Below, piece after piece: positions 6,728-20,700 of a stretch of DNA of 39,760 nt. Position 1 is the stretch's first letter, and every line of letters starts with the position of its first letter. This DNA is from a virus, in IMG/VR virus record IMGVR_UViG_3300025133_000269, positions 1-39,760 of that record; one strand, given 5' to 3'. Both the position numbers and the translations under genes were made by a program. Below the pieces are notes generated by a model. That model was given only the letters and a program-made list of their open reading frames with translations, was not told the origin of the DNA and made no database searches.

Positions 6728-7456
6728 TTATTTTTTAGATTCTTTTAAAAGTCGATTAATAACTTTTTTATAAATTTTATTTTTAAGATTTTTTATTTGT
6801 ATTTGCTTGTTTTCAACCAGATCAATGTTCAAACCAGCAAGAGCAGATTCATAAAGATCCTCCTGCATGGGTTCTTCTTCAACCTCGGCATCCATAGCAA
6901 TTTCTTCGTCGCCCATGTCGGCAGACATTTCAAGTTCCGCATCTACTTCTTCTGGTGCTTCGTCAGATCCGCCTTCGTCGCCCATCGCAGCGCGGAGTTT
7001 ATCTGCTAGTGCAATAATGTCTCGCGCCTCATCATCCGTGAGGGTTACTTCATCTTCCATCGCAACATCATCTGCTTCAAGTTCATCACGTTCGCGATCT
7101 GCTTCAGAATCCATATCGCTTAGTTCATCTTCCGTAGCATCGCGTTCATCTTCCGCTTTCGATTCTTTTTTAACAAAATCATCGCCGTCATGGGTGTCGG
7201 ATTTGTCGTCGCTGCGCATACCGTGACCACTATCATCGATGTCTCCGTCAGCACCTTGATCACCTGCGGTTTCATCATCGTCATGATCGCCGGGGTGAGA
7301 TTTTGACTTCATCCCTGGGTGCCATGATCCTTTCTTTTCCGAAAGTGGGGCGTATTTTGTTGAAATGAACGAGTCGCTCAGTGCGTCAACACTGGCAAGT
7401 TTCATCATCCTACGAATGGTATTCTCATTTAAGAGTGCGTTCTTATTTTTTGACAT
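6728..7456 (-). CDS. Highly acidic protein, 242 aa, possible scaffold or structural protein
   Basis: A very acidic central region (about residues 50-195, dense in Asp/Glu with Met, Ala and Ser, probably disordered) lies between a conserved-looking N-terminal helix (LLNENTIRRMMKLASVDALS) and a basic C-terminal helix (NLKNKIYKKVINRLLKESKK). Similar layouts occur in T4-like marine phage proteins of unknown role and in prohead core/scaffold proteins; the assignment is inference. The start is ATG at 7456, with AAGGAG 9 bases upstream; an in-frame ATG at 7516 would add a hydrophobic leader but lacks an SD. It is followed by tandem terminators, so it ends its transcription unit. Confidence 0.75.
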   Translation of the reverse strand: MSKNKNALLNENTIRRMMKLASVDALSDSFISTKYAPLSEKKGSWHPGMKSKSHPGDHDDDETAGDQGADGDIDDSGHGMRSDDKSDTHDGDDFVKKESKAEDERDATEDELSDMDSEADRERDELEADDVAMEDEVTLTDDEARDIIALADKLRAAMGDEGGSDEAPEEVDAELEMSADMGDEEIAMDAEVEEEPMQEDLYESALAGLNIDLVENKQIQIKNLKNKIYKKVINRLLKESKK

Positions 7457-7522
7457 TATATTTTCTCCTTTAGGTCGTATAAAAATAATACAAAATAAAT
7501 AGTATTTAAACCACAAAAACGA

Positions 7523-7837
7523 CTATTCTAAAATGTTTAGAGTGCTTTTTCCTCGAATCTTCATCTTTTTTAACGCAGCAGACTCAATTTGTTTAATGCG
7601 CGAGGGCGTAAGATTCAAACGTTTTCCCACTTCTTGTAGGATCATTTTATTATTTTTCACGACTGCCACCGCAGTACAGTTTAGATCATCAGGATAATCT
7701 ATCCACAATCGACATTCTTTATTGGGGCATTCAACTTGAAATTTTGCGCATAAACTATAACATTTTGAACCCGTTAATTGTTTATAATCACGCGGTCGCG
7801 TTGGGGACTTTTCAAAACTAGAAGTAGGGCGTTTCAT
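7523..7837 (-). CDS. Sigma-70 region 4-like HTH protein with cysteine cluster
   Basis: A 104-residue protein. The C-terminal part (about residues 65-95; MILQEVGKRLNLTPSRIKQIE then SAALKKMK) matches sigma-70 region 4, the helix-turn-helix that recognises the -35 element. The N-terminal half has Cys26, Cys30, Cys37, Cys42 and Cys54, including CPNKEC, and may bind zinc. Regions 2 and 3 are missing, so it cannot act as a complete sigma factor. It may be a phage transcription regulator, for example a coactivator or sigma appropriator. The start overlaps the upstream stop as ATGA, coupling it to a ribbon-helix-helix-like gene. Confidence 0.75.
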   Translation of the reverse strand: MKRPTSSFEKSPTRPRDYKQLTGSKCYSLCAKFQVECPNKECRLWIDYPDDLNCTAVAVVKNNKMILQEVGKRLNLTPSRIKQIESAALKKMKIRGKSTLNILE

Positions 7838-8154
7838 AATTCGGGATGCTCACTTTCTAAAATGTCAAATATATTTTCCACCTCATCATCATCTAACGCA
7901 AAGAGATTTTTAGTAGATTTAGATTGATGGACACCTTTTATAACCTTCTTTCTTTGAGGGATATTGTGAATCCCGTTTTTCGATTTAAAGATATTAAGAT
8001 AATTCATCAGGTTCTCGTCTTTTTCTAAATATCCAGTCATGACAGCACGAAAAAAATTTGCTTGTGTCAAACCATCATAGTGGAGGCGAATTTTGAAATC
8101 TTCTTTTTGACGTTCCTCAACCGTGAAGATAATCTTTTTAGTTTTATTATTCAT
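7834..8154 (-). CDS. Ribbon-helix-helix-like protein, 106 aa
   Basis: Begins with a basic beta strand (KKIIFTVEE) followed by two helices (KEDFKIRLHYDGL and QANFFRAVMTGYLEK), the order of a ribbon-helix-helix DNA-binding domain; the remaining 60 residues are polar with an acidic C terminus. The DNA-binding role is by fold pattern only. ATG overlaps the stop of the methylase gene (TAATG), and its own stop overlaps the next start (ATGA), so methylase, this protein and the sigma-like protein form a coupled trio. Confidence 0.6.
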   Translation of the reverse strand: MNNKTKKIIFTVEERQKEDFKIRLHYDGLTQANFFRAVMTGYLEKDENLMNYLNIFKSKNGIHNIPQRKKVIKGVHQSKSTKNLFALDDDEVENIFDILESEHPEL

Positions 8155-8645
8155 TACCGTATGAGAGTGCTAACTCTAGGACCCCCCACCCACTTAAATC
8201 GCCGCCTATCAAAAACCACCACAGCAGACGGAAAAGGTGCTGCATTTTGCTTATTCATTCCATTACCAAACTTCAAGCGCCCCTTAACAAAATAAATTGA
8301 ATCTGCTTCAGTCATAATATAGTCATGCCAATATTTTGTATCAGTTCGGGCGGGGATCAACATTACAACTATAGCGTTGTGGTTAATAGATTCATCGTGT
8401 GCCTTTTTAACCCACGCTTTAATATTGCCATAAGGGGGATTAACAAATACTGTTTCATCCTTCCATGACTGTAACAATCCATCATCTTGACTAGTATAAT
8501 ACTTTGAGCATTTTGCACTCGATGCAGTACAACACGGGTCAAGGGTAAATTTAAATTGATTATTTAATTTATCATAAAAATCCTGGGGTGTTTCCCATTC
8601 ATTTGATTTTGAACTAAACATTAGATTTTGTGTTTGCGTATCCAT
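8154..8645 (-). CDS. Phage DNA N6-adenine methyltransferase (Dam family)
   Basis: A 163-residue class I SAM-dependent methyltransferase of the phage Dam type. Visible: NEWETPQDFYDKLN at the N terminus, FTLDPCC (33-39), and VFVNPPYGN with the catalytic NPPY motif (69-72); IVVMLIPARTDTKYWH and the C-terminal PFPSAVVVFDR are also typical. It would methylate adenine in phage DNA, giving protection from restriction or a regulatory mark. The target sequence cannot be read from the protein and no partner endonuclease is adjacent. AGAGG lies 6 bases before the ATG, inside the end of the upstream gene. Confidence 0.9.
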   Translation of the reverse strand: MDTQTQNLMFSSKSNEWETPQDFYDKLNNQFKFTLDPCCTASSAKCSKYYTSQDDGLLQSWKDETVFVNPPYGNIKAWVKKAHDESINHNAIVVMLIPARTDTKYWHDYIMTEADSIYFVKGRLKFGNGMNKQNAAPFPSAVVVFDRRRFKWVGGPRVSTLIR

Positions 8646-8889
8646 CTTTAACCTCTTTAATTATTTTTTGTGCCTGGTTCCAACAATCTGGACAATAAAG
8701 TCGCACTTCATCTTTTTGACGATTCACAACAACATTCCATGTCATCACCATTTCTCTATCTTTTTTATCAAAACTTTTGTTGCATGTCAAGCAAAAATCA
8801 GAAAGTTTATTAAATAATCCCATTTTTTTAGAAAATTCTTTTTGGGAATTTTGTTGTGCAGTTCGTTTTAATTTTCTTTTTAAACTCAT
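8614..8889 (-). CDS. Zinc-ribbon protein, 91 aa
   Basis: Basic N terminus (about 22 residues rich in Lys/Arg), then a zinc ribbon with two CxxC knuckles, Cys33-x2-Cys36 and Cys66-x2-Cys69, separated by a beta hairpin (WNVVVNRQKDEVRLYC). Role unknown; such small ribbons bind nucleic acids or partner proteins. SD GAGGGGGTGATG precedes the start. Its last 32 bases overlap the methylase gene. Confidence 0.7.
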   Translation of the reverse strand: MSLKRKLKRTAQQNSQKEFSKKMGLFNKLSDFCLTCNKSFDKKDREMVMTWNVVVNRQKDEVRLYCPDCWNQAQKIIKEVKDGYANTKSNV

Positions 8890-8892
8890 ACA

Positions 8893-9936
8893 TCACCCCC
8901 TCAAGAGAATATGAGTGGCGCTTTCAGTAATGCCAGAGGCAGTTTGCCGTATAAAAAACGCTTTATTTTGTAACTCTTTTATATCTCTTACACCACTATA
9001 TGAAAATCCTGAGCGAATCCCTACTACAAGATCTTCTATAATGTTCTTTACCGAACCTCGGTAGGGAATAGAGGTAGAGATTCCTTCTCGTGAAGATACT
9101 TCCCCCTTCCACTTCATTTGTGCTTCTGATGATGCCATTCCTTGATAAATTTTAACCTTGCCCCCCTCCGAGTCAAAAATTTCACCAGGGGATTCATCGG
9201 TGCCCGCTAACAGGGAACCAAGCATTACAAAATCAGCACCTGCCGCTAACGCCTTTACAATATCCCCTGAAGTTTTAATACCTCCATCGGCAATTAATAA
9301 AGCGCGTTTACCTTCATTTGCTTGTGCGCAATCTATTATCGCTTGCAAACCAGGTACACCGTGACCAGTTTTTAAACGAGTGGAGCAAATGCTTCCGCCG
9401 CCGATTCCAACTTTAATGCTGTCTGCTCCCCAATTACACAAATCGGCAAATGCTCTTTGAGTCGCGACATTCCCAACCATAAAATGAACATGAGAAAAAT
9501 CTCTTTTCAAAAATCCAAGTGCCTCTTTAGTTAAAATATGATGGGCATGGGCAATATCTAAACAGATAATAGATACTCCAAGTTTTATTAATTCTTGTGC
9601 CCTCTCATAATAATCTCCAGTTACACCTACTGCCCCCCCAACAAATACTCCTTTTGTGGTGCGCCGTTTTTTGAGGGCGGTACGAACAATCTTTGTTTGT
9701 TCTTCAATAGTATTATAGCGATGAATGATTCCCAACCCTCCACACTCGTGCATTGTCTGCGCCATTGATCCTTCGGTAACTGTATCCATTGGGGCAGACA
9801 GTATAGGGACTTTTAAATAATGTGGCGCAATCAAATTGCCAATCTCTACTTCACTTCGAGAGCGAATATCACTAAAACGTGGACTTAACAAAACATCTTC
9901 GTAAGTAAGTCCGGTATTTTGAGGCAAACATTTCAT
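8893..9936 (-). CDS. IMP dehydrogenase / GMP reductase family protein without CBS domains
   Basis: A 347-residue TIM-barrel enzyme acting in guanine nucleotide interconversion. Markers: GLTYEDVLLSP (9-19), PILSAPMDTVTE, the cysteine loop KVGIGGGSICST with catalytic Cys184, ADGGIKTSGDIVKALAAGADFVMLGS for phosphate binding, and KIYQGMASSEAQ followed by IPYRGSV. The CBS pair of ordinary IMPDH is absent, and the length equals that of E. coli GMP reductase, but the C-terminal SGITES tail is more IMPDH-like, so the direction (IMP to XMP or GMP to IMP) cannot be settled. Sits 2 bases after the dUTPase gene; part of a nucleotide-supply set. Confidence 0.88.
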   Translation of the reverse strand: MKCLPQNTGLTYEDVLLSPRFSDIRSRSEVEIGNLIAPHYLKVPILSAPMDTVTEGSMAQTMHECGGLGIIHRYNTIEEQTKIVRTALKKRRTTKGVFVGGAVGVTGDYYERAQELIKLGVSIICLDIAHAHHILTKEALGFLKRDFSHVHFMVGNVATQRAFADLCNWGADSIKVGIGGGSICSTRLKTGHGVPGLQAIIDCAQANEGKRALLIADGGIKTSGDIVKALAAGADFVMLGSLLAGTDESPGEIFDSEGGKVKIYQGMASSEAQMKWKGEVSSREGISTSIPYRGSVKNIIEDLVVGIRSGFSYSGVRDIKELQNKAFFIRQTASGITESATHILLRG

Positions 9937-9938
9937 TT

Positions 9939-10433
9939 TTATCTCTCTTTATCAGTGGAACCAAGTGCGCCGTCGCCACGTTCAGACATAGTAATTGGAT
10001 ACCAATCATAAAGATTGCCGCTACCTGTCTCAACTGCCCTAAAGTGAACTACGGGGATCATTATTGCTTGCGCTATTTTTTCGCCTGGGTGGATCGTTTG
10101 TGCTCTAGTCCCAATGTTGTGGAGATTAACAAAGACTTCCCCGTCATAACCACTATCCACAACACAAGCACCAACAAGTAATGATCTTTTATAAGCAATA
10201 CTGGAGCGATTTTTAATTTCCAGCATATACCCGTGTGGGACACCAAAGCGATAACCTGTAGAAAATAATTTACTTTCCCCTGGTTCTAAAGTTAGTGCAT
10301 CTCTCTCCTGGTCTACAAGAGGGATAACGCCTTTTGGGGGAGGGTTAAAAAATAAATCCAAACCCGCATCACTTGGGTTTGCACGTTGAGGGGGTATAGC
10401 ACTCTCTCTTACTTTTGTATATTCTATAATCAT
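9939..10433 (-). CDS. dut: dUTP diphosphatase (dUTPase)
   Basis: Hydrolyses dUTP to dUMP and pyrophosphate, keeping uracil out of phage DNA and feeding dTMP synthesis. All five trimeric dUTPase motifs are present: I SDAGLDLFF (21-29), II EIKNRSSIA (72-80), III VVDSGYDGEVFVNLHN (91-106), IV GEKIAQAIMIP (117-127) and V RGDGALGSTD (152-161). About 24 residues lie between IV and V, somewhat more than usual. Motif II has NRSS in place of the common PRSG. AGGAAAG lies upstream; only single-base gaps separate it from its neighbours. Confidence 0.95.
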   Translation of the reverse strand: MIIEYTKVRESAIPPQRANPSDAGLDLFFNPPPKGVIPLVDQERDALTLEPGESKLFSTGYRFGVPHGYMLEIKNRSSIAYKRSLLVGACVVDSGYDGEVFVNLHNIGTRAQTIHPGEKIAQAIMIPVVHFRAVETGSGNLYDWYPITMSERGDGALGSTDKER

Positions 10434-10434
10434 C

Positions 10435-10689
10435 TTATTTATCTTTCCTTTTATATTTTGGACTTTTAAACCTTAACCACGAACGGTAAAAGTTGCCCTG
10501 TGAATCGCATTTGTTATAATGCATTACATCCCACCCAATATTAATATAATCAACGACAACTGAGTAATCCTCTTTCATGTATTCGTTCTGGGTAAATGTT
10601 AAATTAATCTCTTTCCCTTTTATAAAATCTTTCTCATGCCATTTTTCTCGTAGCACTCGATTAATCATCTCTTGTATCTCGCCTTTCAT
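10435..10689 (-). CDS. Hypothetical protein, 84 aa
   Basis: Not recognised. A helix at the N terminus (IQEMINRVLREKWHEKDF) is followed by beta strands with alternating hydrophobic residues (EINLTF, YSVVVDYINIGWDVMHY) and a basic tail. Tightly packed between the dUTPase gene and another small gene, so it belongs to the dnaE-dut operon. No membrane segment. Confidence 0.6.
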   Translation of the reverse strand: MKGEIQEMINRVLREKWHEKDFIKGKEINLTFTQNEYMKEDYSVVVDYINIGWDVMHYNKCDSQGNFYRSWLRFKSPKYKRKDK

Positions 10690-10691
10690 CT

Positions 10692-10919
10692 TTATGTAAA
10701 ATCCCTTTCACAATAATAAATGAGTCTGTGATCATTTGAAAGAGGATCTACAATATATCCACTATCTTTAATCTTATATTTCTGCCTACCTAATCTATTA
10801 GCATATTCACTTGCTCGCTTAATAAGGTAATCAGTTACACTATTGCTTGCTTCATATTCCACTTCATCATTTGAAATTATTAAATTAAATATTTTCAATG
10901 TATCATCTTCTATCTTCAT
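10692..10919 (-). CDS. Hypothetical protein, 75 aa
   Basis: Small mixed alpha/beta protein, not recognised. AGGATAAAAAG precedes the ATG, a good ribosome site. It begins 4 bases after the dnaE stop and is probably co-transcribed with it. Confidence 0.6.
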   Translation of the reverse strand: MKIEDDTLKIFNLIISNDEVEYEASNSVTDYLIKRASEYANRLGRQKYKIKDSGYIVDPLSNDHRLIYYCERDFT

Positions 10920-10923
10920 CTTT

Positions 10924-13900
10924 TTATCCTATCATCTTGAAATTAAAAACGCCCCTACAAGAAAACCCCCACGTTTCATCATAATCTAGTTTAGCAACAT
11001 ATGGTCGGTTAACAAAAACTTCATCAGTCGGTTTTACCCCCCAACATTTAATCTTTGTTGACTGAGATGAATCATCAACGACATCGATAATCCAATAATC
11101 TTTTCCCCGCTTAGTTTTTTTGGGTATGATTATACGGGGTATAAACCATGACAACTTCAAAGAAGTGTCATATTCACTAATCGACTTTACCTGGTGGTAA
11201 CAAAGACGCTCTTTTACCTTACTATCCAGAACTAACTCAAATGGAAATAATCCCGTTAATTCAATAATATTTTTAACTTTTTCCTCGTGAGAAAAATCAG
11301 GTTCAGAAGCATATTCTGTAATATTCTCCATCAATTTTTTAACAGTTTTAGGGCGATTCTTTGCAACTGATAACCAAAGATGCCTACAGTGCTTAAAACG
11401 ATCATCAACAATAGAATCACATGCCCCAGAACGTACTAGCACATCTAGCGCCTTCTTGTTTAATTTTGCATATGCAATTTTCTCATTAAACAATAATTCT
11501 TCCATTGAGTTAAAAGGGCGATTCTCAATAATCTGTTGCATCGCCTTTTCCCCAAGACCCTTGATGGATGTTAAGGGTTGCAAAAGTTTGCCAGATTTTG
11601 ATATTTCCCAAACCTTCCCCGATTTATTGATGTCCACTTCATCGATTTTATAACCCATATTTTTTGCGATATTTAACGCTTTTTCTTTACGTGTATCGGG
11701 TTCCTTATTTAAAAATGATGCCAACCACTCAGAGGGATAATAATTTAATAACCACGCGCACTGGAAAGATAACATGCTATATCCTACAGCATGTGATTTA
11801 TTGAACCCGTATCCTGAGAAATATTCAAACGTTTGCCAAAGTTTCTCAGCGTCTTTCTTGGTTATGCCTTTTTCATAGCACCCATCTATAAATTTTGTAT
11901 GGATTTTAACTTTTGCATCATTTCCTTTGCCGGTTCCTTTTTTAGTAAGAAGTTTGCGTAAAAGATTACCCTCGTCTAGTGTAATATTTTTACCTAAACG
12001 ATGAGCAAGAATAGCAATTTGCTCCTGAAATATTAAAAATCCATAAGTTTCTTGAGTTACTTCTTCCACAATGGGGTGTAAATACTTAATATATTGGGGA
12101 TTCTTTTTTGCCTCGATATAATCCTTGTCCACTCCTGCCGACAAAGGTCCGGGGCGGAAGATAGAAGTAATTGCGGCAATATCAATTAAACTGGTCGGTT
12201 GTGCCCTTTGGCAAAACTTTTGAGCGCCTGGTTCCGTAAATTGAAAAACGCCCGCCCACCGACCACTGTGAAATATATTTTTGTAAATCTCTGTATTTCC
12301 TACGTCTAAAATATTTGGGTGCAGATTTTTATCATAGTATTTTTTAATATCAGCAAATTCAGGATTAGCAATATTGTGGTGGCGCTTTAGAATAAGGGCA
12401 ATCGCATCCTCAATCATACGCAGAGTGCCTAAACCTAGAATATCAAACTTAATAAATCCCATCGGTTCTAGGTGACGAACATGTTGCCCCTCAGTCCATG
12501 GGGTCTGTCGCACACCACCTGAATAGATTAGAGGCATATATTTATTTAAATTTTCGCCCACCACAACTCCACCAGCATGTCTAGAACAAGATCTGGTTTG
12601 CCCTTTAAGGACCGTCACATGTGTTTTAATGCGGGGATATTTCTCTAAAAAGTCGTTAAGGGAACTACTGTACTTCATTAGTTCATCAAATGTTGGATCA
12701 TAAATCCCCGCTTTGATTCCGCGATCTTTTTTGGCAAGAGGGATAGTTTCAGAATACATTTTTTTTGTAACCGTGTTGACCTCTATAAAGGGTACATCAT
12801 AAAACTTTGCAATATCTTTAATTAAAGATCGCATTTGTAGTGTGTTCCAGTTAGAAATAGGGACTACACAATCATCCCCCCATTCTTTAATGAGTTCTGC
12901 CTTTAACGCCATAGGGTCGGAGACATCATAATCAATATCAGGATAGTCTGTAGCATCGGATCGTAAAAATCGAGAAAATAAAAGATCATACTCAATTGGA
13001 TCAACCTGCGTTATACCTAAAGCATATGCCACCAAACTTCCACCGGCAGATCCTCGTGCTGGTCCGCTTAGTTGAGAAAGTCTCGCCTTATCAGCGATTG
13101 CCTTCATAGTAAGGAAGTATTTACTAAATCCTCTATCTTTAATAATCTTCAATTCCCTCTCAAGTCTTTCACTATATTCTGGAAGATTTAAAGAATTATC
13201 TATGGATGCCAAACCTGACCGTGACGCTTGAGACAACGCCTCATCTTCGGTCATTCCCTCTTTCACCACAAATGATGGCAATCGTACAGTGTTATCAGGG
13301 TAAAAGGTTTCAATGCGATTATGTGCAATATCATAAGTGCGCGTAATAGAGTCCTTAATTATATTATCGTCATACGCAATATTTGCTTTCTGCGAATATC
13401 TCTGATATGATTCCCACATCTGCTCTCCGTTTTTTGGATAAAGTTCGTACCCAACTTCTTCCACTGATGCGGGCAAGTCTCCTGCCAGTGCGCCGATACC
13501 AGGTCTTAATCGTTTATATAAGGAGCGATCTTTCCAAACTTCAGGGGAGTAATAATGTGAATCGCTAGTAGAAATCAACTCTACTCCATATTCATCACAA
13601 ACCTTTATTATATATTGATTAAGTTGGTGTTGATCCTGATGATCAATCCACTGCAACTCTCCGTACCATCTATCTCCAAAAATCTCTACCATCTTTTCAG
13701 TAGTTTCACGCATAGCATTAAGAACAGCATCGGTGCCATTGTCCTTATTCGCCCAATAATTACCTGCATAAATACCACCCAAACATGCGGAAGATGCAAT
13801 AACGCCTTCATTGTATTTCTTAAGTAAGTCATAATCAATTCTAGGAAAACGATAAAAGTTTCCTGGTTTAAAAGACTGGGAAATCAAATTAAAGATATTG

Positions 13901-14322
13901 TTCAACCCAATTTGGTTCTGTGCAAGTAATATCAAATGAGATCTTTTATTAATCTTATCTTTGTTGTTTTTAGTTTCCGATTCATCTTCAACTGAAAATC
14001 CAGATCCCGCGTCGTCTTTTTTACGTTTTTTAGATGCTTTATATTCTTCATAAGTTTGCGCCCATTCTTGAAGCGACGGTATAAAATATGCCTCTACACC
14101 ATAAATTGGTTTAAAGTTCTTGCCTTCTTTTTCCATTGATTTGGCATGTAATACCTGATATGCTAAACCATTACAATTGCCATGATCTGTTAAGGCGAGC
14201 GCATTAGAACCATTTTCATAAGCAAAGTCCATATGCTGCTGTGGAAATCCAATTGCATCGAAGGGGGAACCCGCAGTAGAGTGGGCATGAAGACCGACGA
14301 ACGGAATAGAAGACTTAATCAT
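10924..14322 (-). CDS. dnaE: DNA polymerase III alpha subunit (family C, DnaE-type)
   Basis: A 1132-residue family C replicative polymerase. N-terminal PHP domain: HAHS (12-15), LTDHGN, GVEAYF, SHLILLAQN, SACLGG and TSDSHYY, so every metal ligand class appears present and the domain may be an active 3'-5' exonuclease. Polymerase core: GPARGSAGGSLVAYALG, the catalytic PDIDYD pair and FDILGLGTL with the third Asp. C-terminal part: GLGEKAMQQII (helix-hairpin-helix) and an OB-fold-like RGKDYWIIDVVDD. Length is near E. coli DnaE. A TTGACT-17-TAATAT promoter ends 6 bases before the ATG with no properly spaced SD, predicting a leaderless mRNA. No separate epsilon-type exonuclease was found in the window. 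Confidence 0.97.
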   Translation of the reverse strand: MIKSSIPFVGLHAHSTAGSPFDAIGFPQQHMDFAYENGSNALALTDHGNCNGLAYQVLHAKSMEKEGKNFKPIYGVEAYFIPSLQEWAQTYEEYKASKKRKKDDAGSGFSVEDESETKNNKDKINKRSHLILLAQNQIGLNNIFNLISQSFKPGNFYRFPRIDYDLLKKYNEGVIASSACLGGIYAGNYWANKDNGTDAVLNAMRETTEKMVEIFGDRWYGELQWIDHQDQHQLNQYIIKVCDEYGVELISTSDSHYYSPEVWKDRSLYKRLRPGIGALAGDLPASVEEVGYELYPKNGEQMWESYQRYSQKANIAYDDNIIKDSITRTYDIAHNRIETFYPDNTVRLPSFVVKEGMTEDEALSQASRSGLASIDNSLNLPEYSERLERELKIIKDRGFSKYFLTMKAIADKARLSQLSGPARGSAGGSLVAYALGITQVDPIEYDLLFSRFLRSDATDYPDIDYDVSDPMALKAELIKEWGDDCVVPISNWNTLQMRSLIKDIAKFYDVPFIEVNTVTKKMYSETIPLAKKDRGIKAGIYDPTFDELMKYSSSLNDFLEKYPRIKTHVTVLKGQTRSCSRHAGGVVVGENLNKYMPLIYSGGVRQTPWTEGQHVRHLEPMGFIKFDILGLGTLRMIEDAIALILKRHHNIANPEFADIKKYYDKNLHPNILDVGNTEIYKNIFHSGRWAGVFQFTEPGAQKFCQRAQPTSLIDIAAITSIFRPGPLSAGVDKDYIEAKKNPQYIKYLHPIVEEVTQETYGFLIFQEQIAILAHRLGKNITLDEGNLLRKLLTKKGTGKGNDAKVKIHTKFIDGCYEKGITKKDAEKLWQTFEYFSGYGFNKSHAVGYSMLSFQCAWLLNYYPSEWLASFLNKEPDTRKEKALNIAKNMGYKIDEVDINKSGKVWEISKSGKLLQPLTSIKGLGEKAMQQIIENRPFNSMEELLFNEKIAYAKLNKKALDVLVRSGACDSIVDDRFKHCRHLWLSVAKNRPKTVKKLMENITEYASEPDFSHEEKVKNIIELTGLFPFELVLDSKVKERLCYHQVKSISEYDTSLKLSWFIPRIIIPKKTKRGKDYWIIDVVDDSSQSTKIKCWGVKPTDEVFVNRPYVAKLDYDETWGFSCRGVFNFKMIG

Positions 14323-14328
14323 GCCTCT

Positions 14329-14357
14329 ATATTACCTGAATATGTTGCTTAAGTCAA
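14329..14357 (-). promoter_or_regulatory. dnaE promoter, probably leaderless
   Basis: Minus strand TTGACT (14357-14352), 17-bp spacer, TAATAT (14334-14329). Six bases (AGAGGC) separate the -10 from the ATG at 14322; AGAGG is too close to the ATG for normal SD use, and the predicted transcript starts at or beside the AUG. It drives dnaE and the small genes, dUTPase and later genes behind it. Confidence 0.7.
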
Positions 14358-14361
14358 CTAA

Positions 14362-14622
14362 TTAAGTCACATTTTTAATAGTTAATAAATAAATTTCTCG
14401 CATCTCTTTTGCATAATCGTCTTGTTTGTTTTCAAAATATTCCATCATTCGCGATTTAAAGTAAGATGCATAAAGGGTATAAACCTCTTGCTGACCTTCG
14501 ATTTTCGCTTTTTCTAGTTTATCAGCAATTTCTGCTTCGGTCACATTAGGGGGAATAGCACCAGTCTCAGGTTTTTCCAAAACAGAATCGTCTTGGGTGG
14601 CAGGTTTTTTAGTTCGCGGCAT
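14362..14622 (-). CDS. Hypothetical protein, 86 aa
   Basis: A polar, Pro/Thr/Lys-rich N terminus (about 30 residues) followed by a long amphipathic helix region (TEAEIADKLEKAKIEGQQEV onward). Function unknown. SD GAGGAG lies 8-10 bases before the ATG. It is transcribed divergently from the plus-strand fibre gene at 14690, with 67 bases between them. Confidence 0.65.
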   Translation of the reverse strand: MPRTKKPATQDDSVLEKPETGAIPPNVTEAEIADKLEKAKIEGQQEVYTLYASYFKSRMMEYFENKQDDYAKEMREIYLLTIKNVT

Positions 14623-14647
14623 TTAAATCACTCCTCAGTTCTTTTTA

Positions 14648-14655
14648 TATAAATA
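14648..14655 (+). promoter_or_regulatory. T4-type late promoter motif TATAAATA
   Basis: A perfect TATAAATA octamer, the consensus of T4 late promoters, 34 bases before the plus-strand fibre gene and within the divergent gap 14623-14689. T4 late promoters need only this -10-like element plus gp55/gp33-type factors. As an AT-rich 8-mer it can occur by chance; the position before a virion-type gene is the support. Confidence 0.4.
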
Positions 14656-14689
14656 TCCTTTAACCCCAAAAAAAACTATTTAATATATT

Positions 14690-15112
14690 ATGGGGTTCGG
14701 TGGAGGATTTAGTTCTGGTGGTCGTAAGGGTGGACTGACGGTTGTAAGTGGTGCGCATGGCCAAGTGTTAAGATTCCATCAAGGCAAAAAAGCAGTTATT
14801 GGCAGTAACGATTTTACAGTAGATAATGACACGGGGCAGATTGGTCTTACCGGATCAATAAATTTAAAAGGAGATTTTTCACACTCTGGGAGTATCACTC
14901 CCGAAAATAACGAAGAGTTGGGAAATACCGAACAAAAGTATTCGAACGTCCATACCGACAATATCTCTACATCCAACCTTTACACAGGCGATCTTCATAT
15001 GAAAAATGAGCGAGGTGACTGGACCCTCTTTGAAGAACGAGAACACCTCACAGTTAAAAATAACCTGACGGGTGAAGAATTCAAATTGATGCTAGAAAAA
15101 ATTAAAAAATAA
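14690..15112 (+). CDS. Small tail fibre/virion protein with shared C-terminal domain, 140 aa
   Basis: Glycine-rich N terminus (MGFGGGFSSGGRKGG) then a beta-rich repeat-like stretch (SNDFTVDNDTGQIGLTGSIN) and a C-terminal module from about residue 95: YTGDLHMKNERGDWTLFEE, then TVKNNLTGEEFKL. The same module ends the next gene (657 aa), so the two probably assemble into the same or alternative fibres, the shared end perhaps being a folding or attachment domain. No SD is visible before the ATG. One of only two plus-strand genes in the window. Confidence 0.75.
   Translation: MGFGGGFSSGGRKGGLTVVSGAHGQVLRFHQGKKAVIGSNDFTVDNDTGQIGLTGSINLKGDFSHSGSITPENNEELGNTEQKYSNVHTDNISTSNLYTGDLHMKNERGDWTLFEEREHLTVKNNLTGEEFKLMLEKIKK
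14980..15109 (+). repeat. C-terminal fibre module, copy 1
   Basis: Encodes YTGDLHMKNERGDWTLFEE and about 25 further residues. It is similar in DNA and closely similar in protein to 17145-17271 at the end of the next fibre gene. The DNA differences are mostly at third codon positions, so this is an old duplication kept by selection. Confidence 0.7.
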
Positions 15113-15164
15113 TTTTTTTTTATTCCAAACAAGACCAGTGCTTACATTCTTTTTGCACCTTTTT

Positions 15165-15183
15165 TGCCTCATGTTATGAGGCA
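15165..15183 (+). other. 8-bp hairpin in fibre gene leader
   Basis: TGCCTCAT-GTT-ATGAGGCA, a perfect stem with a 3-base loop, preceded by six T on the plus strand and not followed by a T-tract, so it is not a normal plus-strand terminator. It lies in the 188-base gap between the two fibre genes. Confidence 0.55.
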
Positions 15184-15217
15184 TATGATTAATTAAATAC
15201 TAGTTATCAGGACCAAG

Positions 15218-15252
15218 GGTGGTAAATTCTCGCAAGAGAAAATTTGACCACC
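15218..15252 (+). other. Long bulged hairpin with GCAA tetraloop upstream of the 657-aa fibre gene
   Basis: GGTGGTAAATTCTC-GCAA-GAGAAAATTTGACCACC folds into about 13 base pairs interrupted by a 2-base and a 1-base bulge, capped by the GNRA-type loop GCAA (15232-15235). The 3' arm runs into CCTGA (15251-15255), which could instead pair with TCAGG at about 15208-15212, giving two competing structures. It would lie in the 5' leader of the next gene if transcription starts upstream. No known riboswitch class was recognised. The rest of 15113-15300 holds no gene. Confidence 0.6.
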
Positions 15253-15300
15253 TGACGTACAAATGGGTAAACTAATTTTATCCATAGAGGAGAAATAAAT

Positions 15301-17274
15301 ATGGTAGATATATATAGACCCGGTATTCTGGGTACAACAGGTTCATTCGGATCAATTCAATGGACAAATGGGGTTTCGGGGAGCACTCAATATGAAATTA
15401 TGGATGTGTCCAGAAATCTTGCGAACCTTGGAACTGTAAGTGGTTCAGGTGCATCGACAGCAGGTAGTTATTCAACTGATAATACGGTTACTGGTGGGTC
15501 CTTGACGGACGGCACGGCAACTATGAGCGCAGGTGCTATTTCAGGTGTCACAACTATGAGTGGTTCAGGAACATCCCACGCTGGTAGTTATACGACTATT
15601 GGCGCGGTTACAGGTGGAAGTCTAACTGACGGTACTGCTACAATTAGTAGTGGTGCTGCGAGTGGTCTTACGACTGTTGGTTCGTCCGGTGCTGCAACGC
15701 TTGATACTGGCGCTAATGGTTCATCTTTTGGTGGTGATTTGAGTTTCGTTACAGGTTCTGCTACTGGTGATTTCACGATTTCTGGTAACTTATATGTTAA
15801 TGGGACAACCACACAAGTTGATACTGATAATCTTAATGTGAAAGATAAAAACATCTTAATCAATGATGGTGGTGCTGCTGCTAGTGCTGGCGGTGCTGGT
15901 ATTGACGTTGAGGAAGATGGTATTGTTTCTGGTTACATGAAAGTTTCATCTGATCGTGGTGCATGGGAAATGAAAGCACCAGATAATGCTGGTGTTCTTA
16001 CGATGGATATTGATGCAACAAAAACTATTACAGTTGCTGGTGCATTAAATATTGAAGCGGATTCAATTATCAATCAAGACCTTACAACTGATGCAAGTGT
16101 AACTTTTGCTGGTCTGGATAACTCTAGTGGTAATATTACTAACGCTGGATCTATTGCTGGTGCAGCAAGTATTGATGGTACTGGTGATTTAACAATGGGA
16201 AGTATCACAATGACAGGATTCTCTGTTGATACTGCTGGTGCTTTGACTGGTTCGTCGCTCACTTCAACAACCACACTAGATGCAGCAGGACTATCATCTT
16301 TGGATGGTGGTATTGATGTTAATAGTTCAAACTTTACAGTTTCGACTGCTGGTGCAGTAGTTGCCGCATCTTTAAATAATTCTAGCGGTGGTATTACTAA
16401 CGCTGGATCTATTGCTGGTGCAGCAAGTATTGATGGTACTGGTGATTTAACAATGGGAAGTATCACAATGACAGGATTTTCTGTTGATGCTGATGGTGAC
16501 ACATCTGCTAAATCCCTTACTTCAACAAGCACACTTGATGTTTCAGGACTAGCATCTTTAGATGGTGGTATTGATGTTAATGGTTCAAACTTTACAGTTT
16601 CAACTGCTGGTGCGGTAACGATGATGGGATCTCTTGATGTTGATAGTACAGCAAATATCCAAGGTGCTCTCACTCTGCAAAACAACTTTTTGTTTAGTGG
16701 TGAAAGCACTTACGTGGATACTATTCTAGACGAAGACGACATGGCGTCTAATGATGAGAATGGTCTTGCAACGCAACAATCAATTAAGGCATATGTTGAT
16801 TCACAAGTTGGTGATTCTTCATTAAGTGGTTCTGGTGATTCTGGTACTTTTGTTATCGATCTCGATAGTCAAGTATTGTCTGTAATCGGTACTGCAAATG
16901 AAGTTGACACTGTTGCTTCAGGGCAACAACTTCAAATCGGTCTTCCGAGTGATGTTACTATTGGTAATGATCTTACGGTAACGACGGATTTAGTAGTTGG
17001 CGGTGATTCTACTTTAGGTGACTTAAGCAGTGATAGTCTCACTGTTAATGCATCTCTTGCAAGTTCCCTTATTTGGGATACCGACAGTACATATAATATC
17101 GGTTCAAGTACTGCAAAATTGGCGGCAGTTTATGCTAACAATGTATACACGGGCGATTTTCATATGAAGAATGAGCGCGGTGATTGGACTCTTTTCGAGG
17201 AATCGGATCATATTAGAATACGCAACAACACAACTGGTCAAGAATTTAAATTGGACATGTCTCCAATTAAATAA
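15301..17274 (+). CDS. Repetitive tail fibre-like virion protein, 657 aa
   Basis: Composition is Gly/Ser/Thr/Ala/Asp-rich with almost no Cys or aromatic residues, typical of trimeric beta-structured phage fibres. Order: short N-terminal part, two SLTDGTATxSxGA repeats (about residues 50-125), a module GDFTISGNLYVNGTTTQVDT plus NLNVKDKNILINDGG, two 86-residue tandem repeats (272-443), EDDMASNDENGLATQQSIKAYVDSQV-type fibre motif (read in two parts), and the C-terminal YTGDFHMKNERGDWTLFEE module shared with the gene at 14690. It likely forms a distal fibre. AGAGGAG lies 9 bases before the ATG. It ends at an intrinsic terminator. Confidence 0.85.
   Translation: MVDIYRPGILGTTGSFGSIQWTNGVSGSTQYEIMDVSRNLANLGTVSGSGASTAGSYSTDNTVTGGSLTDGTATMSAGAISGVTTMSGSGTSHAGSYTTIGAVTGGSLTDGTATISSGAASGLTTVGSSGAATLDTGANGSSFGGDLSFVTGSATGDFTISGNLYVNGTTTQVDTDNLNVKDKNILINDGGAAASAGGAGIDVEEDGIVSGYMKVSSDRGAWEMKAPDNAGVLTMDIDATKTITVAGALNIEADSIINQDLTTDASVTFAGLDNSSGNITNAGSIAGAASIDGTGDLTMGSITMTGFSVDTAGALTGSSLTSTTTLDAAGLSSLDGGIDVNSSNFTVSTAGAVVAASLNNSSGGITNAGSIAGAASIDGTGDLTMGSITMTGFSVDADGDTSAKSLTSTSTLDVSGLASLDGGIDVNGSNFTVSTAGAVTMMGSLDVDSTANIQGALTLQNNFLFSGESTYVDTILDEDDMASNDENGLATQQSIKAYVDSQVGDSSLSGSGDSGTFVIDLDSQVLSVIGTANEVDTVASGQQLQIGLPSDVTIGNDLTVTTDLVVGGDSTLGDLSSDSLTVNASLASSLIWDTDSTYNIGSSTAKLAAVYANNVYTGDFHMKNERGDWTLFEESDHIRIRNNTTGQEFKLDMSPIK
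16114..16629 (+). repeat. Tandem direct repeat, two units of 258 bp
   Basis: Unit 1 is 16114-16371, unit 2 16372-16629, each 86 codons. The core 16135-16230 / 16393-16488 is identical over 96 bases apart from one synonymous C/T change, while the rest of the units has diverged more. The nearly identical core suggests recent duplication or gene conversion. Confidence 0.85.
17145..17271 (+). repeat. C-terminal fibre module, copy 2
   Basis: Encodes YTGDFHMKNERGDWTLFEE and the terminal NNTTGQEFKLD region; it is the counterpart of 14980-15109. Confidence 0.7.
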
Positions 17275-17302
17275 TTGTTGACTCTTTGAGTTAATTTAAA
17301 GT

Positions 17303-17339
17303 CCTCGTCCGGTCTTTGATCGGGCGGGGCATTTTTTTT
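17303..17339 (+). terminator. Intrinsic terminator after the fibre cassette
   Basis: Plus strand stem 17303-17314 with 17318-17329 (CCTCGTCCGGTC / GATCGGGCGGGG), 12 pairs including three G-U, a TTT loop, then CA and eight T. It separates the plus-strand fibre genes from the converging minus-strand gene that ends at 17338. Confidence 0.85.
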
Positions 17340-17541
17340 AATAGAGTTTTTTGGATCGCACCATCACAACACTACTTTTAAAGGGTTGCTTTTTTTTATC
17401 TATAAATGCACGAGGACCGGCGTGTAAAAAAGGTTTAGGTTCAATAATATAATAGCAAGAACGATCATCATCCAAAATAAAAACTACTTCTTCCTCTTGG
17501 TTTTCTCTTAAAAGTTTTTCTATCATATGTTTAACTTTCAT
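17338..17541 (-). CDS. Hypothetical protein, 67 aa
   Basis: Small protein with an N-terminal helix (KVKHMIEKLLRENQEEE) followed by strands (VVFILDDD, SSVVMVRS); not recognised. The start overlaps the upstream stop as ATGA. It is the last gene of the minus-strand operon and converges on the fibre genes. Confidence 0.6.
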   Translation of the reverse strand: MKVKHMIEKLLRENQEEEVVFILDDDRSCYYIIEPKPFLHAGPRAFIDKKKQPFKSSVVMVRSKKLY

Positions 17542-17837
17542 AAAAAATACCCCAAAACAAAAGAAAGGGATGCTAGGGTAAAAAAGTTAGTCCACAGCAA
17601 AAATTTTAATAATCTATTGCGCTGCCGCATCATATCAACAAACTCTGTAATTGTATCGTCCTGTTTCAAAATTAAATTTTCTTCTATGTTCTCCATTCTC
17701 TCTTTAAAAAAGGGATTAAGTTTTTCTATAACTTCGTTTCCTATTAAATCCCGTTCTTTTTTTCTTAATTCCTGCTCTGCTCTATGTCTTAAATTTGTTG
17801 CTGTTTGAAAATCTCTGCTAAATCCACCTTGTGGCAT
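17538..17837 (-). CDS. Coiled-coil protein with C-terminal membrane segment, 99 aa
   Basis: Starts at ATG 17837 (MPQGGFSRDF), which overlaps the upstream stop as TAATG and has GGAGGGAGTAGGA before it; an in-frame TTG nine codons earlier is less likely. A long charged helix (about residues 12-78) precedes one transmembrane segment (FLLWTNFFTLASLSFVLGYF) at the very C terminus. This is the same layout as the protein at 1409-1696. Membrane function unknown; holin or membrane-attachment roles are possible. Confidence 0.65.
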   Translation of the reverse strand: MPQGGFSRDFQTATNLRHRAEQELRKKERDLIGNEVIEKLNPFFKERMENIEENLILKQDDTITEFVDMMRQRNRLLKFLLWTNFFTLASLSFVLGYFL

Positions 17838-18250
17838 TATCCTACTCCCTCCGATCCCGTCCAATTATGCAATAATTCACCAGAGTCAATAGTGGTCATA
17901 CCTGCTATTACTGAGGCGGTGGCATTATAAGATGATCCACTATCAACTCGCAAATAAACACTAGTAATTCTCCAATCTGCCGAATAAGATTCTTGATTTG
18001 CCAAAACTAAATAATTAGATCCGTTCACCCCGTTTGCAGCAAATCCAATCCGTAAATTCACCTCAGTTGTGCCATCATCCAATCCGGTGTTCTTAATAGT
18101 AATAAAGCGACTTACATTGGGCAAACTAATCTGAATAACGCTCCCGTCTACGGGCACATCGATAGAGGAAGTAAGAAACGGTTTACCGCTTGTCTGGTAT
18201 GATCCTACATTTCCAAGACCTGCTCTATAATCAAAATATTTTGTTACCAT
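17837..18250 (-). CDS. Probable virion surface/decoration protein, 137 aa
   Basis: Beta-rich, Gly/Ser/Asn-rich protein beginning MVTKYFDYRAGLGNVGSYQ and with segments VIQISLPNVSRFITIKNTG, LRIGFAANGVNGSNYLVL and ADWRITSVYLRV. This pattern is shared by small structural proteins of marine T4-like phages, as I recall them, and suits a capsid decoration or fibre-associated protein. Exact location in the virion is unknown. GGAG precedes the ATG; a 29-base gap separates it from the nucleotidyltransferase-like gene. Confidence 0.65.
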   Translation of the reverse strand: MVTKYFDYRAGLGNVGSYQTSGKPFLTSSIDVPVDGSVIQISLPNVSRFITIKNTGLDDGTTEVNLRIGFAANGVNGSNYLVLANQESYSADWRITSVYLRVDSGSSYNATASVIAGMTTIDSGELLHNWTGSEGVG

Positions 18251-18279
18251 TAAATCTCCTACCTTAAATAGTTTATCTC

Positions 18280-19212
18280 TCAGTCTTCTTCTTCCGCTAT
18301 TTTATTCCATTTTCCCGCATTAAGTAATTTTAATTTGGGGTATTTTAAAATTTGAGATTCTTCAGAGGATAAAAATCTTTTCCAACCTTCCCAGGTATCG
18401 ATTTCATAGTACCAGGACATTTCTACCATATTAAACATTTCTTTTTCTATATTCTTAAATATATAATCAAATGTAAAAAATCGCCCTGAATTTCTTTCCT
18501 CTAAGGGGAGGGTTTTAGTTATGTATTTTCCATTTTTTCGTTCATTTTCGGGTTGTGAAGGATCAAATTTACCTGTAGCGTTTCTCCAAAAAAATAATAT
18601 CAATTCTCCTAAGTGCTTTTTCTCAAATGCAAAACCTACTTTCTTTCCGTCTAAAATACTTTCACCCTTGTCAGTTAAAACAAAAAAATTTCCATCCATA
18701 GTGAGCATGTTTCTATATGCCCTCAAGTGTTGAGATGGATATACACTCATGGGAAAACAAACATAATATTTATCTGGTTCGATCCATTTGCTCAGAGAGC
18801 GGGAAACTTTTTTTGCTATTTTTGCTCCATAAAGAACTCCCCATACTTGTGAATCTCGAACTCCCTCATCTTTAGGACTACACTCCACATAATAAATAGG
18901 AATTTGCTTCCTGCTTTGAGAGGGAAATACATCGTGCTTTCTGCTAATCCACACAGGGTCTTGGACGATCTCCCCTAGGCGATGCTTAATCAACGGTTGA
19001 ATCTTGGGGGGGCATACTACCCATATTGTTTCGCACCCCACTGTAGCGCATTCTAATATCGCCCTTTCAATTGCTAAAAAATTTGGGGCGATAGGCATTA
19101 AACAATCACGCCAAGGTAAATTAAAATCTCCACCTTTGTCTAATAACGAAATAATGCCCGCAAGGTGGTATGAATCCTTTTTAGAGATATTTGGAGAGCA
19201 CTTTTCTGGCAT
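18280..19212 (-). CDS. Nucleotidyltransferase-like (GT-A fold) protein, 310 aa
   Basis: The N terminus resembles a sugar-nucleotide transferase: HLAGIISLLDKGGDF, then PWRDCLMPIAPNFLAIERAI and ECATVGCETIWVVCPP, i.e. a strand, a loop and a helix leading to an activating-residue region as in NTP-transferases, although the classic GxGxR-P loop is not kept. Later RDSQVWGVLYGAKIAKK and YYVCFPMSVYP fit the second half of such enzymes. With the cupin at 20347 and phosphomannomutase at 26279 it could supply the GDP-mannose-forming step; this is inference. Overlaps the upstream gene by 32 bases. Confidence 0.6.
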   Translation of the reverse strand: MPEKCSPNISKKDSYHLAGIISLLDKGGDFNLPWRDCLMPIAPNFLAIERAILECATVGCETIWVVCPPKIQPLIKHRLGEIVQDPVWISRKHDVFPSQSRKQIPIYYVECSPKDEGVRDSQVWGVLYGAKIAKKVSRSLSKWIEPDKYYVCFPMSVYPSQHLRAYRNMLTMDGNFFVLTDKGESILDGKKVGFAFEKKHLGELILFFWRNATGKFDPSQPENERKNGKYITKTLPLEERNSGRFFTFDYIFKNIEKEMFNMVEMSWYYEIDTWEGWKRFLSSEESQILKYPKLKLLNAGKWNKIAEEED

Positions 19213-20014
19213 TTGAGTCCACTGAAGGTAAATTTATTATATCAGTTAGGGGGTCATAATTAAAAATTATTCTGTCGGTTGTTTTGTATTTTCTTAACTT
19301 GGGAACAATTTCACGGTGATCATGTTCTAACCGAATGGCATAATATTTATACTTGGTTTTATCTTTTTGATCTCTGCCGTTGCGTGTTCCTCGAATGCCC
19401 GCTTGTTTCATCATATATAGAGTTTTGAAGCGGGAGTTTATAGTTGAATATTCCATAGAGTCTATTTGTTCTTTTGTTAAATGAGAAATTGAAACTGCAT
19501 CTTTAAGTTTATGATTGCCGTCCACCCGATCAGTATAATAAAAAATTATCTTGCTTACAAAAGAATCTTGCCCGTCAATAATTTCATGGGAATGTTTCAT
19601 ACCGCTCCTAACATTAAACCAGTCGCGTACCTCATATAAGTTATCTTGGGCATTTGTAGGACATGAAGGAATCCCACTCACATTATAATCATCAAAGACG
19701 ACAATCTTATTTGCCCGTAATTTATATTTCCGTGCTCGCTTTGTAAAAATATTCAAATGTGCATCTTCAATGCGGATTGAGTCAATCTTATCAGCATAAA
19801 TTACATTACCACTCAGTGATAACGCATAATAAAGACATCTCCATAAATCAACTTGAGTATGTTTTTTTTCTAAAAAATATATATCTGGTTCTATCTTTGT
19901 GGGGAGAAGAATACGTGTATATACAAGAGTAAAATCGTTCTGGGTGCAATATATAAGAGCATCCAAAGATGCTCCAATAACTATTTGTCCTTGTTGATTA
20001 TTATTATTTCGCAA
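19181..20014 (-). CDS. Hypothetical protein, possible Rossmann-like N terminus, 277 aa
   Basis: Not recognised. The start of the reading frame is a TTG (20014) or ATT slightly upstream; no ATG lies near, and no SD is visible. After a short Asn/Gln-rich start comes GQIVIGASLDALIYCTQNDF, which resembles a degenerate nucleotide-binding Rossmann beta-alpha-beta turn. The rest is mixed alpha/beta and basic at the C terminus (KYKYYAIRLEHDHREIVPKL). It sits immediately before the nucleotidyltransferase-like gene and shares 32 bases with it, so it may serve the same sugar or nucleotide pathway. Confidence 0.6.
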   Translation of the reverse strand: MRNNNNQQGQIVIGASLDALIYCTQNDFTLVYTRILLPTKIEPDIYFLEKKHTQVDLWRCLYYALSLSGNVIYADKIDSIRIEDAHLNIFTKRARKYKLRANKIVVFDDYNVSGIPSCPTNAQDNLYEVRDWFNVRSGMKHSHEIIDGQDSFVSKIIFYYTDRVDGNHKLKDAVSISHLTKEQIDSMEYSTINSRFKTLYMMKQAGIRGTRNGRDQKDKTKYKYYAIRLEHDHREIVPKLRKYKTTDRIIFNYDPLTDIINLPSVDSNARKVLSKYL

Positions 20015-20060
20015 AATACTACAAATAAAATAAGGGCGATTAAGACCCTATATTTTAATT

Positions 20061-20360
20061 CTAATTCCATAAGAGGGGAGCAAGTCTTTTTTGAATAGTG
20101 TCTGCTATTTGGTTATTAAGGATAGTTACTTCCCTCAACTCACTTAAAATAAATTCTCTACTTTCGGGATAGGAGTTCTCCACCAATAGACGGAGTGCTT
20201 CTGCCCTGCCACATGATTCATCAAAATCTTTTCTAATATCCTGAATCATCTCTTGCTTAACGGGATCACCATCAATAAGTTCAGTGGCATCTCTTATCCT
20301 TTCCGAAGAATGTAAAAATTCTGTCACTAATGTAACAAATCCTATATCAAGTTCTTCCAT
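20061..20360 (-). CDS. Hypothetical helical protein, 99 aa
   Basis: All-helical, acidic (MEELDIGFVTLVTEFLHSSE onward), no family recognised. Three in-frame ATG codons are possible (20372, 20366, 20360); 20360 is preferred because AGGA lies at the right distance before it. It overlaps the end of the cupin gene and is probably co-expressed with it. Confidence 0.6.
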   Translation of the reverse strand: MEELDIGFVTLVTEFLHSSERIRDATELIDGDPVKQEMIQDIRKDFDESCGRAEALRLLVENSYPESREFILSELREVTILNNQIADTIQKRLAPLLWN

Positions 20361-20700
20361 AATCATCCTCATATCTTGTTATATCGTCTTCGCCAAAGTA
20401 TTCTCCCATCTGCACCTCTACAAATATAAGGGGATTATCGCCACCACATTCAATTCGATGTTTGGACTCGCGAGGAATAAAAAAGCAGCGACCCGCATAA
20501 GCATCAAGATATTGATCTTCTAAAATCACTTTGCCCGTGCCAGAAACAACAGTCCACACCTCAGTACGTTTATGATGAGATTGATAACTTAAGCGGCATC
20601 CGGGGTTGACAATAATCTCTTTTAATTTATAAAGTTTTCTATCTTCTAGTACCTCATAAGTTCCCCAAGGGCGATCTTCAATTTTTTTATCTTTTGCCAT
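20347..20700 (-). CDS. Mannose-6-phosphate isomerase, cupin type (ManC C-terminal-like)
   Basis: A 117-residue single-domain cupin matching the isomerase half of type II PMI/GMP enzymes: RPWGTYEVLED, then YKLKEIIVNPGCRLSYQSHH with the metal-binding histidines, KRTEVWTVVSGTG, GRCFFIPRESKHRIE, and the C-terminal FVEVQMGEYFGEDDI and RYEDDYGR. It would convert fructose-6-phosphate and mannose-6-phosphate. The usual N-terminal guanylyltransferase half is absent here; the transferase-like gene at 18280 may take its place. A TATAAT lies 9 bases before the ATG but no -35 matches; AGGTGG overlaps that spacing. Confidence 0.88.
   Translation of the reverse strand: MAKDKKIEDRPWGTYEVLEDRKLYKLKEIIVNPGCRLSYQSHHKRTEVWTVVSGTGKVILEDQYLDAYAGRCFFIPRESKHRIECGGDNPLIFVEVQMGEYFGEDDITRYEDDYGRT

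Follow-up and report, generated by a model that had tools for sequence, protein, structure and literature searches.

A strand-flipped, separately terminated pair of viral fibre genes with a shared end domain is fixed rather than mobile

Two adjacent fibre-type genes run on the plus strand of a viral genome fragment whose other genes lie on the minus strand, and both end in the same short C-terminal module. Do they form a mobile cassette or a settled part of the genome, and what might the shared end be for? The fragment is virus record IMGVR_UViG_3300025133_000269 (one strand, positions 1 to 39,760); "the window" below means this whole stretch of 39,760 bases. A preliminary description saw in the pair a separable host-range cassette, possibly gained or inverted as a unit, with its own possible late promoter motif, hairpin leader and intrinsic terminator and with the module as a common tip or docking domain. 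The feature is real and tidy, a strand-flipped, separately terminated fibre gene pair with a shared end domain, and it is fixed rather than mobile.

Both open reading frames (ORFs) lie where first described (Table 1), and their starts and ends are backed by homologues. To the left are genes for DNA polymerase III alpha (10924-14322) and an 86-residue protein, to the right a set of small genes, all on the minus strand; most other plus-strand ORFs of the window overlap ORFs on the minus strand for which family or relative matches exist. A relative contig of 156,635 bases (G002) is likewise nearly all minus-strand, except for the gene pair and a few other ORFs. Because G002 encodes a tail sheath, a gp23-type head protein, a portal and a terminase, seen in that contig and not in the window fragment, we regard the group as distant T4-superfamily-like myoviruses. 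Searched as a whole gene against known phages, gene 1 has no relative; of the six records obtained with gene 2, five match an internal segment and the sixth a C-terminal piece, and residues 479-571 of gene 2 match phrog_18186 (baseplate wedge subunit). Elsewhere the window holds a Cpn60/TCP-1 family chaperonin gene (1711-3291), with a G002 counterpart at 76% identity, and a dehydrogenase-like gene (8893-9936; phrog_9582, E 8.5e-100) that has a match in the relative L006 and none in L002, L004, L005 and L009, though their contigs hold neighbouring genes. G002 also carries a long run of genes (L018 6945-19999 and L019 1-7576) whose N-terminal sequences, by eye, resemble sugar-nucleotide and glycan enzymes.

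Table 1. Coordinates of the gene pair and its associated features in the window
Feature	Position	Strand	Remarks
TATAAATA, late-promoter-like motif	14648..14655	+	42 nt from motif start to gene 1 ATG; candidate
ACTATTTA, candidate promoter motif of gene 1	14675..14682	+	ACTANTTA in 7/7 loci
Gene 1 (P0001)	14690..15112	+	140-aa short fibre-type protein with C-terminal module; homologues in 7/7 distinct relative contigs
Module in gene 1	14981..15109	+	residues 98-140; AF2 pLDDT 88-97 per 10-residue block, four predicted beta strands
ACTAGTTA, candidate promoter motif of gene 2	15199..15206	+	exact ACTANTTA in 5/7 loci; the other 2 differ at one position
Leader hairpin of gene 2 mRNA	15217..15253	+	fold z -2.4 in window
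Gene 2 (P0002)	15301..17274	+	long fibre, 657 aa: about 50 conserved residues at the N-terminus, a highly variable middle and the module at the C-terminus
Tandem duplication in gene 2 stem	16118..16617	+	242 nt, period 258 nt (86 codons), 88% identical
Module in gene 2	17146..17271	+	residues 616-657; BLASTP match to gene 1 copy
Intrinsic terminator after gene 2	17303..17337	+	hairpin 17303-17329 plus T-run

A scan of viral contigs with gene 1 returned 10 loci, corresponding to 7 distinct contigs once L003, L007 and L008, copies of L002 and L006, were left out of the counts. The pair occupies the same place in the same orientation in all seven, five of which show both flanks, and the order polymerase, 86-residue gene, gene 1, gene 2, right-hand genes is kept as far as each contig reaches, at polymerase identities to the window of 68-86%. 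The 86-residue gene was not found in L010, whose contig begins inside gene 1; in L004 the right neighbour of gene 1 is a lectin gene, and gene 2 falls past the contig end. When strands were counted from mechanical ORF calls of at least 100 residues, both immediate neighbours were opposite-strand in 7 of the 8 group contigs, the window being one of the eight; L010, the remaining one, lacks its left side. With a 60-residue cut-off a downstream plus-strand ORF appears in three of the eight; we took these ORFs as spurious because they overlap conserved minus-strand genes. Outside the group, module genes agree in strand with both neighbours at 43 of 46 distinct scorable loci (70-residue cut-off); three loci have one neighbour opposite and none has both. 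Given that module genes elsewhere run with their neighbours, the simplest account makes the inversion a derived state of the group, and the gene orders compared here indicate an inversion that is probably derived, old and fixed since before the group diversified. Inversion as a unit, as first proposed, thus stands as to the probably derived plus orientation and fails as to a unit that moves or flips, all relatives being alike. Titles and abstracts of openly licensed papers yielded no description of a fixed fibre inversion.

Transcription signals accompany both genes. The late promoter motif first proposed upstream of gene 1, TATAAATA, is kept in 6 of 7 loci, L011 having AATAAATA, but is not enriched in the window (6 found versus 4.4 expected). 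A better candidate for a promoter motif is ACTANTTA: in G002 it is found 33 times on the sense strand versus 10.6 expected and three times on the other strand versus 6.7 expected, one of these three being gene 1's own copy, and ACTATTTA is the most enriched upstream octamer of that contig (11 genes versus 0.87 expected). The window's three plus-strand copies of ACTANTTA all lie within 14357-15206, and two of these precede the two genes of the pair by 15 and 102 nt; the motif shows no clear excess in the window as a whole (6 minus-strand copies versus 4.1 expected, 3 plus-strand copies versus 2.7). The proposed hairpin leader of gene 2 was recovered; the leader fold z is -3.6 and -2.7 in two of six relatives and a weak -0.5 to -1.0 in the other four. 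It gave no clean alignment across relatives, hence no covariation is claimed, and Rfam returned no match in the window or the six loci. The proposed intrinsic terminator is conserved in 7/7 group loci with compensatory changes: 94% of cells are paired among the seven sequences and 6 of 12 pairs have changed on both sides, compared with 36-56% paired when the alignment was slid by 1-3 columns as a control. A fixed flip in which both genes carry the group's sense-strand motif makes a useful case of a unit held backwards in a nearly one-strand genome.

The shared end, first put at roughly 45 residues, spans about 42 (BLASTP between the two proteins, E 1e-23), of which about 29 of 42 are identical over YTGD...IK by hand count on the BLASTP alignment. 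The 15 group copies have N, Y, GD, H, NERG, WT, EE, NN, TG and K invariant, and in each of the eight records searched exactly two module matches were found, namely the adjacent pair. A profile-guided scan placed 80 of 87 confirmed stretches at no fewer than 75 loci, 10 from the group and at least 65 others; removal of 8 near-duplicates from 65 leaves at least 57 distinct outside loci, which are not 57 phages because L131 and L152 fall on the same contig. That contig, of 149,878 bases, represents one phage with two separate module-gene pairs. Among the outside loci listed, the module sits 0-24 residues from the stop wherever the stop is included, as it does at 0-1 residues in both window proteins. 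Twenty-seven of the 57 distinct outside loci listed have two module genes, in 25 cases on the same strand and separated by no more than 510 nt; 17 have a single module gene well inside the locus and 13 have one near or cut by a contig edge. In L127 and L132 a nearly bare-module protein of 79 residues directly follows a longer module-ended fibre, and Marine virus AG-345-D19 has an adjacent module-gene pair of 465 and 697 residues. The module occurs in cyanopodoviruses, in cyanomyoviruses and in contigs of up to 281 kb; by record name, 51 of 58 named relatives are cyanophages, in which it ends large proteins annotated as structural or hypothetical. No fitting model was found in Pfam (92 module rows) or NCBIfam (58 rows), and no description of the module by title or abstract in openly licensed papers. 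An NCBIfam beta-lactamase model that hit one of the 58 rows at E 0.006 was dismissed as chance. As judged from these searches, the module is widespread, always terminal, often paired, and without a fitting Pfam or NCBIfam model or a solved structure found. We consider the domain itself the most useful result, as it now has a sequence definition with about 90 aligned members.

Two AF2 runs give the module end as a confident four-stranded all-beta fold (pLDDT near 90). Foldseek against the PDB gave no match for the module at E 0.001 or better, VIA-align gave nothing above Z 3.1 and no convincing fold, and among predicted viral structures only one unnamed protein and one Synechococcus phage structural protein came near E 0.001. 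In gene 2, mean pairwise identity by 25-residue block across seven group members is 0.43 for the first 25 residues, 0.01-0.36 for the middle, which is nearly unalignable among group members, and 0.63-0.82 for the two main blocks of the module, where conservation along the protein peaks. A small, conserved, C-terminal, all-beta end therefore fits a fibre-closing or trimer-nucleating domain, and we lean, with somewhat better than even confidence, towards a native fixed fibre locus in which the module serves as such an end domain. We posit that an uncultivated T4-superfamily-like group of myoviruses carries the pair as a fibre locus of its own, native and transcribed separately; the orientation of the locus would go back to a single event in the group ancestor, a flip or construction on the opposite strand, and have been fixed since. 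The N-terminus of gene 2 probably attaches the long fibre to the virion, its repetitive, fast-changing stem and middle would carry whatever binds the host, and the C-terminal module would close the fibre, gene 1 being a short protein with the same end domain. The four strands could nucleate or lock a trimer at the C-terminus, foldon-like, in the slot that the S74 chaperone takes in other fibres; both this trimerisation role and the placement of the two proteins in the virion are inferred from sequence and model. A bolder extension, which we offer only tentatively, is that the module could be a fibre-closing (foldon-like) domain not defined before, widespread among environmental phages and standing in for the S74 chaperone in the same slot. 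Phages would keep it in pairs, with one copy at the end of a long fibre and another on a shorter protein; the shortest of these, the 79-residue form, could work in trans, capping trimers or joining them as a partner. Distal fibre ends decide both folding and host binding, and the cyanophage-type fibre end is structurally unresolved; the clean definition, the confident four-strand model and natural cases of S74 in the slot make the module's role testable.

The module might instead be a tip whose receptor is some feature that many hosts share, with genes 1 and 2 as two adhesins of related binding, as its distal C-terminal position and the two copies per record would allow. We think this unlikely. 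No other segment of gene 2 is as conserved as the module, which moreover extends across cyanopodoviruses, cyanomyoviruses and contigs of very different size, whereas a host-specific tip should vary most. The distal position implied by the common tip of the preliminary description is supported; a role of the module in specificity is not. The conservation pattern would be equally expected for a tip that binds a surface feature common to many hosts.

Less probable again is that the module docks another adhesin, for which the gp38-like arrangement offers a parallel and the laminin-G lectins encoded at the locus offer candidates. These lectin genes lie on the minus strand and encode about 250-290 residues (PF13385 in 8 of 9 tested); they separate gene 1 from gene 2 in L006 (two genes), L009 (two) and L010 (three), so that in those relatives the two fibre genes do not form a single transcription unit, and at least two, one cut by the contig end, directly follow gene 1 in L004. 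The window, L002 and L011 have none, however, the single lectin gene of L005 lies outside the pair, between the polymerase and the 86-residue gene, and a lectin profile matches just 4 of 65 listed outside loci (L110/L111 and L147/L169, two near-copy pairs); the module is far more widespread than the lectins it would dock. The lectin genes (L004:6838-8164, L006:7813-9470, L009:8349-10020, L010:160-2558, L005:6647-7462) have in common a short Gly-rich N-terminus (e.g. MGSLVFRIAGSGGG) followed by differing lectin domains, and mostly lie tail to tail against the 3' end of gene 1.

A mobile or invertible host-range cassette, the reading from which we set out, is now very improbable. Strand opposition to all flanking genes, a terminator of its own and a gene 1 whose similarity pattern departs from the backbone would all suit it, but place and orientation are identical in all relatives, no second orientation was seen in the window and the 7 relative contigs, and no inverted repeats frame the pair within 14200-17800, where only short or internal inverted pairs occur. 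Among the window proteins scanned, which represent part of the ORFs, no invertase gene was found. Variation is piecemeal: as sequence comparison has it, the locus changes gene by gene and the pair does not vary as a unit. Window gene 1 is 77% identical to that of L004, 72% to that of L002 and 52% to that of L006, yet L006 is the best match for 15 of 18 neighbouring genes (6728-20700, the two genes of the pair excluded; 57-86% identical). Its polymerase is 86% identical to the window's, versus 73% for L004, and it also gives the best match for gene 2 as the backbone's nearest relative. The three genes best matched elsewhere are 6728-7516 (cut by the contig end in L006), 10435-10689 and the 86-residue gene beside gene 1. 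This pattern suggests that gene 1 was replaced in one lineage, a claim limited to similarity because a gene 1 tree with the window and L006 constrained together was not rejected (p-AU 0.279). Gene 1 of L009 (L009:7809-8348) has about 43 extra residues after its first nine. Present-day mobility is contradicted, then, while an old inversion or relocation remains likely. Least probable of all is a recent tandem duplication within the window phage, to which the 115-nt direct repeat (14974-15088/17139-17253, 72%) might point, since each module type has its own residues and the module tree splits the group's gene 1 type (8 rows) from its gene 2 type (7 rows), by one change and with support of only 65/85.

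How does a native fixed fibre locus with a putative fibre-closing module compare with known systems? The G segment of Mu and the C segment of P1 are invertible fibre cassettes, and the window pair resembles them in having fibre genes in inverted orientation; unlike them, it is without flanking inverted repeats and occurs in one orientation only. Peptidase S74 (PF13884) is likewise a C-terminal domain of fibre-type proteins, with an SDxxLK motif for Ser-Lys autocleavage. The window module is shorter, all-beta in the model, and has Gly in place of the S74 Ser: the two copies read GDLHMK and GDFHMK at the place of that motif, and Gly precedes Asp in 15/15 group modules. PF13884 had no match in the window record, P0001, P0002 or 92 module rows, and was detected in 6 of 48 records searched, none of them among the seven group records (window included). 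In L157, L159 and L165 (L159 and L165 being near copies) the module fibre is followed immediately by a gene with an S74 domain, and no second module, at its end, and in L113 the second gene has, by eye, an N-terminus resembling that of module-bearing second genes and a different end; different end pieces therefore fill the same gene slot. Homology of the module to S74 was set aside, a T5 fibre lead-in reaching just E 2 and PF12219 matching weakly in 8 of 92 rows, and we keep it as a resemblance.

Closer counterparts are the fibre ends of cyanophages. A profile search of the PDB gave one significant chain, fibre gp28 of cyanophage P-SCSP1u (8I4M, E 1.2e-14), which matches at residues 999-1078 of 1079 over profile positions 5-75 of 78 and so places the module C-terminally, hence distally, as in both window genes. 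In the passages of PMC10575957 that concern it, gp28 has its N-terminus resolved as a tail fibre and its distal part unresolved. With gp28, PRQG_00038 of P-GSP1 and AIX26892.1 of Synechococcus phage ACG-2014i, the window module shares its profile and its position at the last residues; after the first-strand NE the cyanophage versions are longer by about 9 residues, and the window has two module genes, on the strand opposite to their neighbours. Adjacent pairs that act on the distal end of a fibre are known as well, as described for Alteromonas phages A5 and V22 in the relevant parts of PMC10579305 and for Pam3 gp24/gp25 in those of PMC9608196. The partner in those accounts is a separate chaperone protein, whereas in the window both genes carry the same end domain.
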